A stretch of 64,000 nucleotides of DNA from Membranipora membranacea (lineage: Eukaryota > Bryozoa > Gymnolaemata > Cheilostomatida > Membraniporidae). Below are positions 15,001 through 33,000 of this stretch, piece by piece. The position numbers and the translations under genes were made by a program. The DNA lies in NCBI GenBank assembly GCA_914767715.1, contig OU612065.1:13890001-13954000 (forward strand). Reading direction: 5' to 3'. Numbering within the stretch: position 1 is the stretch's first letter; each line of letters starts with the position of its first letter. The notes under the pieces are model-generated. The model was not told where the DNA came from. It searched no databases and worked only from the letters and a program-made list of their open reading frames with translations.

Positions 15001-18000
15001 TTGAGAAATTGCTCAATGTTTGAAATATAAAAGTAGTAATTGTGTTGCTTTGTAGGTTTGTTCAGTCATTTAACAGAATGAACCTAAAATATGCCGTTCA
15101 GCCAAAGAAAGGCAAATCCTGTTTGAATGAAATAGTGAGTCTGATAAAATCAAAGTTCAGGAATATGTCAGGAATCGTCTACTGTCTGAGCAGGAAGGAG
15201 TGTGACAAGGTGAGTGCAGTGATCTTGTTGATATGGTAAATTTTGTTGAAGCTGAAGGCCCAATTACACCATCACTTATGCATCTACAATAAGTGTTCTA
15301 CCTTCATCAACTTCCGTCAACTAAGAACAAAGGTTAAACGTCTTTCTCAAATGTTAATTGCCAGCTTGCTGGTAGTTGCTGGTTGAAAGGTATACTAACA
15401 AGTATATAACAACACACGTTTCGAATTCAAGTGTCAGCCCTGTGTTTTAATTATTACACTGCTGCTTTATTTTGTAACAATAATGTGACTGATGAGTCAA
15501 CATCAAGCTTGTATGATAGTACTGTAGATAATTTTTAATGTTCAAAAACATAAATAGGACAAACAAATCATTAGACAATGGTAATACATGTTGTTATACA
15601 AAAGTGGTAGAGTTATTGCTGCTCTCATTTTTCGCATACCATGCCCTCACATCTGGTGTAAACAACACCTTCCATCTGAGGACACCAGGCCATGATTCCA
15701 TCACCACATATACAAGCCATCTACAACGAAATAGAAACATATTTAATAGATGGATAGATATATAAATACACTTGGATATACTTTATCCCAAAGAATCCAT
15801 GTCTGCGAGGGCAAGTGAAACCAATCTTTTGGTCAGAGATTGCACAAGTATTTTGGACAATTAAGTGTTACATGTCTTGTTCAGCTCATCTTCTGTACAA
15901 AAGGAATAATTATAATACTTCGATGTGTGGCCTTCCATTTGAGATATTTTGGCAGCAAGAGAATATAAAGACTTTGATCTTATTCATCACAGCTTGGTAA
16001 AGACATTCTGCCTGACATTTCACTTCCATCCAACTTAGAATGCTGAAAATACTTTGACTCAGTGCAGTGGTACCTCATATTATGATCAATTAAACAGCTA
16101 AGATCAAAAACTGCTGATAAAAACTAACCACCCAAAGCTAAACAGGAAACATATTGTCAATAAAAGAAGTAAAAATCAGTACTCACCCCATAAGCCAGCT
16201 CGCATTCCAACGCCTCGCTCAAAGCAATCACTAATACCAACATCATCATGATCATCATAATTCCTCGAGCCATACTGTAACAGTTATGTGAGACTATGAT
16301 GGAACCTTTTGACAAACCATAAAACCTTTCAATGGAAATTAACCACGAGAGAACCTTACACTGTCTAATATACTGTCAAAATTCTGTCTGTTTGGCCAGA
16401 CCATATCGCACTTCACCCACTTAACTTTCTCTTCAATACGTGATCACAACCCAAATAAAAACATCTGTGTCAGTATAGAGGTTAGAGGGTACAAGAAGAA
16501 TGTACTAACAAACTCAGCCAAGTCGGGAGTAATACTAAGGTCAGCCACCTCTACTGGCACCTTGAGGGGACTCAAACACATGCTTCAGTCAGCGCAGAGC
16601 ATGATGCGTCCTGGCCACTCAGTGACGGCTGCTCAATCCTAATTTACTGCTTGACTTCTGAGCTCAAACATTGTGTCATAATTATTAACAAGATATATTA
16701 ATACAACACTATTTACCGACCTTAGTGAAATGAGTATATACTATAGCTGAATCTCTACTTGCTGTGAGGTGTCTCAATCTCATACCTTCAGTGTCAATTT
16801 ATACCAAATATTTAGGTCAGGATGCCGGTAGATTACCAGCATTACTCTTTTACCAATTTCCAGATTCCAGGTAGTTTATGCAGCTGTCACATTGTATGCG
16901 GCTCACCAATTATTAAAACCCAAACCCATAGATTCATTTGAATATAAAATATGCTGTTGCCCCAATATTTGTGCTTGAAACAGCCTGTGAAGCTCATCAT
17001 CTATAACGTCAATATTTTGAACACTCGATATCATGTTAAAATGGGAACTCAAATCGGTATCTGACTATAGGAAATGACATATCATATGAAGTAGGTCTAC
17101 AGTGGTGGTATATATGCGCTCTGTATGAGGACTTGATGTACATCTGCAATCTCAGCTATTATAAGTAAATAAGCTGTTGGAAGTCAATGGAGCCATTAAT
17201 TATTCGGAGACTAAAGTGTGCTTATTCTGTCCTTTGTAAAATGTTGGCGATTACTGCCAAGTTTTGAGGGCTTTCGGAATATTTCAGTTGATGAAAATCA
17301 ATGTTTGACTAAACAGATGTTTTTCAGCATCTTAAAATTTAACTTTCAAAATTGCGTCGGGTTGTGTTTAATAAGGGAGTGTAAAACATCCTGGTCAAAC
17401 CACCCTCCCTGGTCAAACTCAGTTTATCTATTTTGTTTGATCTTGGAGTTACTCCCACTCTATTGCCCTTATCAATAAAAAAGTAACTCTTTTACAATGT
17501 AGGCTCATACCAGGGAATTGAAATATCCCAAACACCCTGCTTATATGATCAAACTTTATAAAGGACCAGTTTTTTGCTCGGCAAACGGACGAAGATCTGA
17601 TATGAATTTGCATGGTTTTCCAATTCAACCTCAAAGTGACAAAGCTGCCAGACAAAAGAAGATGAGTAACAAGCTTTATCAGTTAAATCTGCAAGACAAA
17701 ATCACCAAATTTATTTACCAGTGATTATATCAGTGTAATCTCCTATTTCATTGTTTTTATATTTCTATTTGCGTGACCAAGCACTATATTTCTTTATTTT
17801 TACGATAGGCAACTCATGACTCAGCTCTCCATTGTCTTATGTCACCGTAGCAGCATGGGTATAATGATGAAATTATTTTCCCTAATTTTTTACTGGGATT
17901 TTGACCAATTGTTTCTTGATGAGGCAGGTTCCTGGAACAGGTGTTTGTATGGAAATTGATAGTTTTGGCAAAAAAAAACAAAGTTGCATTCCCTTAAACC

Positions 18001-30000: not shown

Positions 30001-33000
30001 TATTTGTAGAATAACAGCACAAAATGAACATATATAGTGTAGCACAGTTTATTTACCAATGTATCACAACATAACAGGACATGGCAGGTTATACATCAAT
30101 TTGAAAACTATGAAACAAACGCAGAGTCAGAACTATGTTGATTATTTCACAGGCTTGTCTTCTTGAAAGATGCAATATCCTTGGTTTGTGCACCCTATAG
30201 CTGAAACTCCAGGCTTTGGCTTACAAAAATGATTGACTCCGTCAGAACATGCACACATAGCCTGCAAAATAGAATAAATCAACTTCAATGTTCAAGCTCA
30301 ATCAATACATAAATGCTGTGAATTTTGCTTACATTATAATGTTATATTGTTTTATAGTATTATAATGTATTATAGTATTATATTGTATTATAGTACTATA
30401 TTGTATTATAGTATCAATTACTAGCTTAGCTATTCTTTTCCAGTATGAACTGCATCAGTATTGACTTTTAGATTCTTCAGTTCTCTACTCTACTCTACTC
30501 TACCAGGTCTCAGCAAGGAAATGCTATGTTAACAACTCTCTTTCTCAGTTTAAAATACAAATTGCACTTATTGAGGGGAATATAACCGGTCAAATTTGAT
30601 TCACTGATAATAGTTTATGACAACTGTATTCTGAACTGCGAAATATCTTACTGGAGGCTTAAGAGTACAGGTAACACCGCTGCTTTCAGCAAGTGAGAAG
30701 AGAACCAAGAATACTGCCATCATGAAGAGTAAAGTCTTGAAAGCCATCATTCTAAAATTTCAAAAATATGCGCTGATACAAACATGCATATAAGTGAACA
30801 TAGTCAGCGCGGGTGCTTCCTAATACAAATTTACATCACAAGTGCTGAATTTCAACTGATGACTGACAATATCAGTCAGTGAATATAGCGTAAGAAATAT
30901 AAGACATGAACAATAATACAGTTTACCTACCAACTCTGTAATACAGTAAGAGACAGTTATGATGTTTGAGGGTAGACTGAAACTTGTGATACGCTGCCGC
31001 TTTTTATACCGCTATTGCTGATGTCAGGATTGAAGTTGGAAGTCTTTGAACTTGGAAGTCTTTGAACTGTGATATCTCTGTAGAGTCCGAGCAACAGATA
31101 AACAGGCAATGTCTGTAATTGATAATGCTGCTATACGAGATATAATGTCTTTTTATAACAATGCTGGCCATCACTGACATAATGCACAATGTGCTGGACC
31201 CCGCTGATTCTTCAGTGGGAGCTATCTCAGCTCTGAAATGAACTTATCTGATTAAAATGACATTTTGATCAACACCATCATTATCGGTCAAATCAAGACT
31301 CTGAGCTGTAAACATATAATAATACTTATTTATATGTTTTATGGTAAATCTATAAATAAATTGTTAATATGTTTACGGTTCAACTTCTTGATTTGACAGA
31401 TAATGACGATGTTGAACAAACCATGTGGTTAAGCCACAACTGAATCAGATTCCCACTTTATTATATTATATGATTTGCAAAATGAGTTTTGATGAAAAGT
31501 ATAGTGCCTTAGTAAATCTGACTTTGCTACAACCAAAAGCCCAAAATAATAGGAGGTAAGTTTATTTATACTTTTAACTATATTATCAGGTTGCGGAGGA
31601 CTTGAGAGGAACTGGTATATCAGCTCAGGCTTATCACGCTGGTCTCGATGATGAGAAGCGTGCCTCTGTACAGAGCAAGTGGATCAATGATGAGGGCTGC
31701 AAGGTAGGAACAGGGTGTTGTTGAGTAACCTAAGATCTATATGCAGCTCCATTGTGGAAGTCCATGTCGCTAGTTAGCTGCCATTTTGATAGTTAGGGTA
31801 CTAATACCTCATATAATACACACATCAAGTCTTCAGTGTAAATAGAGTTCTCCTTCTGTGACCGTCGTGGAAATCTCTGGTACATTAAAACACAAAATCA
31901 CTTATGAGTTGAGTTTTGTATGATTTTTATTGGCTTTGATTGATAAGTAATACAGATGGTCGTTAATATTTCTTTTCTATACACTAGGTCTTATTTGAGC
32001 CCCCTATTTGACGGGCCCTATTTGACGGGCCCACTTGAGTGCAGGTGGCTTGTGTGGGGTAGATACCCTATACCACTGCCCGCCGTTGCCGGCTACTATT
32101 TTTTTGAAAGAGGCAGAGGGGGATGTTTATACTGTGTGCAAGCACACAGTAGACCTCCTGTATTTATGATCCTAATCCAAAAAGACATGGCTAGGGTGAA
32201 TTGCTTGCTTGTGTCAAATCAAGCCATTCATATTAGCCAGGTCTGGACAGATACAGTTCTAATAGACATTTATTTTTACCACTAGGTGGTGTGTGCAACA
32301 ATTGCTTTTGGAATGGGAATAGACAAGCCAGATGTGAGGTTTGTGTTTCACTATTCATTACCTAAGTCAGTAGAAGGTTACTATCAGGAGAGTGGAAGAG
32401 CTGGCAGAGACGGCAGGCTGTCTACCTGTATCCTCTTCTATAATTACTCTGATGTTCCCAGAATGAGGCGTATGATAGAAAGTAAGCACCAAGTTTATGT
32501 CTTTGTTGATCTTTAACTTTCAATTTTGTACCGCTACCCAACCTGAAGCAAATCATAATGAAACGGCATAATATAAACAGGGAGTTTGTCCTAAACTCCC
32601 GGGTAAGAATCAAATAAAAACTGATGTATGTATATATTGATGTATGAGTATTTAAACCATCTATTATGCAAAAACGATCACATTAGGCTTAATCCATTAA
32701 AAAAAGAAGAAAAGAATTAAGAGTTATGTCTCAAAAATAACTGAAACAAGCTCTTCTTTCTCATCTCAGTCCTACACTGTTCGGATCTAAAAATCACAGG
32801 TCTGCGAGAGGATGTTTTAAAAGTATTGAATCTTACAAGACTAAAAAGTGGATGGCTTGGATTCCTGCTAATGTTGTTTATCATGTTTATTTCTGAAAAT
32901 AGTGGATAAAAATGCTACCTTTGCTAGTAAGAAGACACATACAGACAACCTGTGGAGAATGATAACGTACTGTGAAAACTCAACAGACTGCAGGCGAGCC

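Follow-up and report, generated by a model that had tools for sequence, protein, structure and literature searches.

Defensins and big defensins are gene families for secreted three-disulfide peptides, and lineage-restricted arrays of cysteine-rich secreted peptides combine a signal exon with a cysteine exon, tandem duplication, variable loops and orphan status. Hirudin-type domains have one residue between Cys2 and Cys3 and a Cys1-Cys2 loop of approximately seven, and pacifastin pairs its cysteines as 1-4, 2-6 and 3-5. The molecular defence and peptide signalling of bryozoans are little charted. In the excerpt of PMC11564256, the genes for hirudin and hirudin-like factors (HLFs) have four exons and three introns, and the excerpt of PMC13388995 gives the pacifastin-like domain as approximately 35 residues with six cysteines, a loop glycine and an invariant Asn directly after Cys2. 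The six-cysteine peptide family of Membranipora membranacea that is considered here apparently has no earlier description; when set against lineage-restricted cysteine-rich arrays, it has its own framework, and most of the genes found lie antisense within a single intron of a helicase gene.

That helicase gene is BLM, which runs on the plus strand of the window (the whole 64,000-nucleotide stretch of DNA that was analysed). The intron holding the array is real: it measures 16,380 bp (15210..31589, plus strand, phase 0), opens with the donor GTGAGT at 15210 and closes with the acceptor ...ATTATCAG ending at 31589, and its flanking exons, the 3' one of which occupies 31590..31703 on the plus strand, join so that ...ECDK meets VAEDLRG..., a product that matches human BLM (7auc, E 3.3e-14) across the joint. 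As the initial annotation had described, five intact genes of two coding exons each lie within this intron on the minus strand. Coding exons 1 and 2 occupy 16187..16273 (signal peptide, Cys1) and 15625..15720 (Cys2-Cys6, stop) in g1, 18350..18439 and 18121..18213 in g2, 22940..23029 and 22712..22804 in g3, 24607..24696 and 24379..24471 in g4, and 30652..30750 and 30142..30261 in g5. The cysteine spacing of x7-8, x1, x7, x8-10 and x4-5 holds for 5/5 window genes, and in the same five a phase-0 GT-AG intron of 135-466 bp separates Cys1 from Cys2, both in agreement with what had been claimed.

The family extends beyond BLM, as indicated by a decayed copy outside that gene and two intact genes on chromosome 6. 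A scan for the exon-2 core motif gave 6 matches in the window compared with a mean of 0.00 in 100 dinucleotide shuffles, and its peptide form likewise gave 6 compared with a mean of 0.0 in 100 Markov sequences; the sixth match is the decayed copy (38144..38692, minus strand), which the initial annotation overlooked, which is closest to g5, and in which the exon-1-like part is frameshifted and exon 2 lacks a stop codon. This copy sits within a tandem duplication that carried BLM 3' sequence too: the segment 27273..35993, with g5 and BLM 3' sequence, recurs at 36291-44358 in mostly collinear matches of 76-86% identity, albeit irregularly, with one repeat piece out of order, one stretch missing and one insert. 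The two additional intact members on chromosome 6, one per strand, were also absent from the initial annotation. Genome searches with queries other than g1 and g2 found at least 8 copies (7 intact, 1 decayed), and members resembling only those two may have escaped them. On contig 4, a further hit (E 4.33, one stop) was weak and was put down to chance. The array intron is crowded with duplicated segments and foldback repeats, and, judging from the duplication blocks, the copies arose via both tandem and inverted duplication. The earlier epithet 'fast-duplicating' fits the three related array units (g2, g3, g4) and the ~8.7-kb tandem duplication, but fits less well the raw differences of 10-17% in the introns and 3' flanks of g2-g4 and a count of 8 copies found, itself a lower bound. 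A Pfam scan of eight neighbouring reading frames matched 3/8. Rfam returned 0 matches over 15000-45000. An ascidian origin of the DNA was considered and rejected: in the mitochondrial sequence, AGR codons fit Ser at conserved Ser positions, which pointed away from tunicates.

The seven intact members share a common plan, in which one coding exon specifies the hydrophobic start and Cys1, another specifies Cys2-Cys6, and a phase-0 intron lies between them. In 7/7, hydropathy and alignment indicate a signal peptide (N-terminal hydrophobicity peaking at 2.9-3.35 on the Kyte-Doolittle scale, over 11 residues) followed by a conserved even number of cysteines, i.e. predicted secretion; the C-x-C-x-x-G core is likewise present in 7/7, with loops that vary among members, and the net charge of the mature part ranges from -4 up to +2 across the family. 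Additionally, and unremarked in the initial annotation, a splice-acceptor-like YAG ends exactly 1 base upstream of the ATG in 7/7 intact genes (background, at 0-1 base, 176/2836 ATGs), and AATAAA lies 73-154 bases 3' of the stop in all seven. With both of these signals present in every intact gene, the mRNAs likely carry a leader that is spliced or trans-spliced on.

Strong evidence that these are real, selected genes comes from chromosome 6, where the two genes have diverged far less in coding sequence than in their introns and flanks: 4/183 coding sites differ vs 221/818 intron and flanking sites (Fisher P 2.7e-17), the latter made up of 89/365 in the intron, 81/226 upstream and 51/227 downstream. 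Only 1 of the 4 coding differences is nonsynonymous, and it falls in the signal peptide, such that the mature peptides are identical. The synonymous sites are conserved too (3 differences in ~40, P 0.006 vs the intron rate), and gene conversion may therefore add to the selection signal. Across 6 distinct sequences, 5/5 exon-2 cysteines are invariant (chance 9e-5, given that 6/26 ungapped columns are invariant), and there are 0 coding indels among g2-g4, which are equal in length, and 0 in the chromosome-6 pair, with indels present in the introns of both sets. Within the array, pairwise dN/dS for g2-g4 is 0.76, 0.65 and 1.03 over the whole coding part and 0.78, 0.58 and 3.36 over the mature part, the last value resting on one synonymous change, and no clear purifying signal emerges from these sequences. 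A comparison of synonymous and nonsynonymous change among these three genes, which had been proposed earlier, gave a divided answer: mature nonsynonymous change exceeds non-coding difference in the pairs involving g2 (P 0.02 and 0.04, uncorrected, for three non-independent pairs), but the g3-g4 pair has no excess (P 0.62) and the two chromosome-6 genes have scarcely changed. This comparison excluded the 5' flanks, since the g2 flanks could not be aligned (49-54% different). Diversifying change, or positive selection, in the array is only hinted at by these alignments and is not claimed.

The initial annotation recognized no named family, and this stood up to searches of Pfam, NCBIfam, the PDB and 5.8 billion proteins, which brought up no convincing relative. 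The large protein search yielded 33 candidates in one round and 45 in another, of which none reached E<=10. Pfam gave only sub-cut-off matches for the 5 window proteins and the 7 family proteins, to four families (best E 0.04, SAP30 zinc finger) and with no Kazal, EGF or defensin domain above cut-off, and NCBIfam had nothing above cut-off for the 5 window proteins. PDB profile searches produced 3 and 5 chance-level matches (best E 0.68 and 0.5), including 4ozk, a putative bacteriocin (E 2.6 and 4). Among viral contigs, 18 pattern matches yielded 0 confirmed, and phage records gave 0 matches. Among the matches listed for literature on antimicrobial or cysteine-rich peptides of bryozoans, on peptides from Membranipora and on families with six cysteines, none dealt with this family, which does not prove its absence from print. 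Membership in a von Willebrand C-like or a hirudin-like family was dropped because there was no match of any sort.

On the best reading of the sequences, the genes probably encode lineage-restricted, secreted three-disulfide mini-proteins, likely extracellular effectors, that grew in number by duplication and came to be nested in BLM by chance. Each array gene would presumably be driven by its own promoter on the strand opposite BLM, with the BLM intron being a mere site of array growth, and a short leader would be spliced or trans-spliced onto the base preceding the ATG. The signal peptide may be cleaved near Ser-x-Ala, and the mature product of 38-46 residues would then be oxidized to form three disulfides and would act extracellularly as a compact mini-protein. 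As no homologue was found in the collections searched, function can be approached by analogy only. 'Defensive or signalling' was a guess of the initial annotation; defensins have a cysteine framework unlike that of the bryozoan family, which also differs in having no Pfam match and in a charge range unlike that of a uniformly cationic antimicrobial family. By such analogy, the role placed first, albeit tentatively, is defence or competition, exerted by extracellular effectors that act either in body fluid or on the surface of the colony, ahead of signalling, then protease inhibition, then others. A fuller version, put a shade more tentatively, would make these disulfide mini-proteins specific to bryozoans and novel in both cysteine framework and fold. 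They would serve defence, competition or allorecognition, either at the surface or as humoral effectors, and the family would be split between a frozen chromosome-6 pair and an array that diversifies inside the BLM intron.

A role in signalling or recognition, with loop-divergent paralogues read by receptors during settlement, gamete encounters or colony allorecognition, appears rather unlikely, even though small paralogues with predicted secretion, variable loops and a kept core would suit it, as would the identical mature peptide specified by both chromosome-6 genes; no Pfam peptide-hormone family was matched, no dibasic propeptide sites were seen by eye between signal and domain, and the Bugula neritina neuropeptide survey, in the excerpt of PMC4990251, names other families. 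More doubtful still is that they are secreted protease inhibitors, each a compact six-cysteine domain with a protease-blocking loop in the manner of hirudin, pacifastin or Kazal proteins but with its own framework. Hirudin, the HLFs and decorsin of leeches resemble the family in being small secreted six-cysteine domains; the order C-x7-C-x-C is reminiscent of hirudin, but the later loops of hirudin-type domains are unlike those of the bryozoan family. Both Pfam and the PDB contain hirudin, and it was matched neither by Pfam for 7/7 members nor by the seven-row PDB profile at E<=10. Hirudin also has an elongated thrombin-binding C-terminal tail, whereas the bryozoan members have none (Cys6 is followed by 2-3 residues in all intact members but g5, where there are 9), and its gene, in the excerpted account, has four exons vs two coding exons in 7/7 bryozoan members, where an extra non-coding 5' exon is possible. 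C-x-C-x-x-G-x4-C resembles the pacifastin core and loop glycine of the PMC13388995 excerpt, with C-x-C-x-x-G and a Cys4-Cys5 loop Gly in 7/7 if C-x-C is Cys3-Cys4, but the Cys2-Asn-x-Cys3 core given there, with its Asn after Cys2, is absent in 7/7, the spacing is mismatched and Pfam gave no match. An AlphaFold2 model of the exon-2 part is all-beta, in keeping with an inhibitor (pLDDT 72.8, pTM 0.29), yet Foldseek found 0 PDB matches to it, PDB profile matches up to E 10 included no inhibitor, and above-cut-off Pfam matches numbered 0/7, the sole inhibitor-like one being FXa_inhibition (E 0.23, 1/7).

That the genes are chance reading frames or dead relics is very improbable and largely refuted: the intron is filled with duplicated segments and foldback repeats and one copy has decayed, but the excess of core motifs over shuffles, the coding conservation on chromosome 6 and the splice and poly(A) signals common to the genes all speak against it. 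Least probable is functional nesting, with antisense transcription of the array regulating BLM or BLM transcription gating the array, for although all five intact chromosome-1 genes found are antisense in the same intron, two intact members lie on chromosome 6, one per strand, and another copy lies outside BLM, so the position inside BLM looks incidental and no special link to genome stability is borne out. What is known of BLM itself is unchanged by the peptide array. If expressed, the genes would provide a clear example of a gene array growing within another gene's intron, as well as a compact set of natural three-disulfide scaffolds with frozen and changing branches in one animal.

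The 16,380-bp intron at 15210–31589 (+) of the gene for the BLM helicase contains five minus-strand genes of two coding exons each, namely g1 (16187–16273 and 15625–15720), g2 (18350–18439 and 18121–18213), g3 (22940–23029 and 22712–22804), g4 (24607–24696 and 24379–24471) and g5 (30652–30750 and 30142–30261). Each of the five was confirmed by reading of the sequence and by script, as were the phase-0, GT-AG introns of 135–466 bp and the cysteine spacing that the initial annotation had described. The core of the second exon, built around a C-x-C motif, has six matches within the 64-kb window vs an average of 0.00 over 100 shuffles that preserve dinucleotides, and its peptide form has six vs 0.0 in 100 Markov sequences. 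There is a high probability that the peptide genes are real. As for the host gene, a match to human BLM (7auc, E 3.3e-14; the query included a few intron residues) spans the joint across the array intron, the exact junction bringing ECDK next to VAEDLRG, and the RQC domain has one match in the whole genome. By its position, the last BLM exon is probably the frame that ends at 35590. The setting of the array within BLM is best read as chance. Elsewhere in the window are frames matching ribosomal protein L36e (2741–3028, minus strand; Pfam E 1.1e-19) and a FAM210A/B-like domain (57581–58003, plus strand; Pfam E 8.8e-8).

All the products begin with a strongly hydrophobic stretch, followed by six cysteines, and, judging from sequence, are very likely secreted. 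In most products the signal is probably cut near Ser-x-Ala, as judged by eye, which would give mature peptides of ~38–46 residues with a net charge of -4 to +2. The initial annotation had recognized no named family, and this was borne out, with neither a family nor a convincing homologue found in Pfam, NCBIfam, PDB sequences or 5.8 billion proteins, the animal share of the latter being uncertain. A weak model of exon 2 only, lacking Cys1 and based on five alignment rows, is all-beta (mean pLDDT 72.8, pTM 0.29), and its comparison with the PDB by Foldseek, weak for the same reasons, gave no match. Since orphan, duplicating, loop-varying disulfide peptides frequently serve in defence or competition, the leading guess is that these, too, may be extracellular effectors of that kind.

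Genome searches with g4, g5 and one chromosome-6 member, which give lower bounds on copy number, located two more intact members of the family on chromosome 6, one at 5844934–5845725 (+) and the other at 5849452–5850020 (-). A match on contig 4 (E 4.33, one stop) was taken as chance. The chromosome-6 genes form an inverted duplication, and their proteins differ by a single residue, within the signal peptide. Differences number 4/183 in coding sequence vs 89/365 in the intron, 81/226 upstream and 51/227 downstream (Fisher P 2.7e-17 for coding vs non-coding). Only one of the four coding changes is nonsynonymous; because three changes at ~40 synonymous sites fall below the intron-rate expectation (P 0.006), gene conversion may contribute to the likeness. 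With or without it, the coding parts are kept. Near the pair, at 5854988–5855974 (+), lies a reverse-transcriptase-like frame whose weak RVT_1 match (E 0.0078) is below the cut-off.

Each of the seven intact genes found has a YAG that ends exactly 1 base upstream of the ATG (background, 176/2836 ATGs at 0–1 base) and an AATAAA located 73–154 bases past the stop in 300 bases scanned (background, 50/256 stretches of 250 bases); the seven are non-independent, yet come from divergent branches. These signals make it likely that the genes have a non-coding first exon or receive a trans-spliced leader, and the YAG pattern may point to spliced-leader trans-splicing in Membranipora membranacea.

In a seven-protein tree, g1 joins the chromosome-6 pair with 96/99 support, although the tree shows three of its four inner branches as open and flags the long rows of g5, g1 and g3 as unsure in placement. 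Raw differences among g2–g4 are 10–17% across intron and 3' flank, and the 5' flanks of g3 and g4 cannot be aligned with that of g2. The suggested synonymous/nonsynonymous check gave a divided answer: mature nonsynonymous difference exceeds that of intron plus 3' flank in g2–g3 (0.277 vs 0.168, P 0.02) and g2–g4 (0.221 vs 0.130, P 0.04), with no excess in g3–g4 (0.133 vs 0.159, P 0.62). Mature dN/dS values are 0.78, 0.58 and 3.36, the last resting on one synonymous change. Together, these comparisons hint at, and do not prove, diversifying change.

The sixth core match (38174–38257), past the inferred BLM end, is part of a copy of g5 (38144–38692, minus strand) whose exon-1-like part is frameshifted and whose stop is lost. 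The initial annotation had overlooked this copy, as well as the chromosome-6 pair and the YAG pattern. Matches of 76–86% between 27273–35993 and 36291–44358 show an ~8.7 kb tandem duplication that copied g5 along with BLM 3' sequence. They are mostly collinear, the exception being a foldback repeat at 29134–29466 that is out of order; the duplicate has no counterpart of 31282–33377 and carries an insert at 38758–42462. Its BLM copy is broken, as the RQC exon copy (43279–43501) shifts frame; the exon at 35375–35590 has a partial copy at 43843–43965, and no copies of exons 31590–31703 and 34426–34659 were found within the window. Repeats in this region include a 31-bp tandem array (37762–37977, 99% matches) and, close to the insert ends, two oppositely oriented GGGACTTTGGT-like minisatellites (38812–39035 and 42183–42432). 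Foldback inverted repeats ~95–96% alike also occur in the BLM intron (28990–29287/29482–29779 and 26394–26542/26670–26818), and are perhaps non-autonomous mobile elements.

Orphan cysteine-rich families are common, as are nested genes; what is notable is the presence of five nested members in a single intron, together with an escaped copy that reveals how the array spreads.
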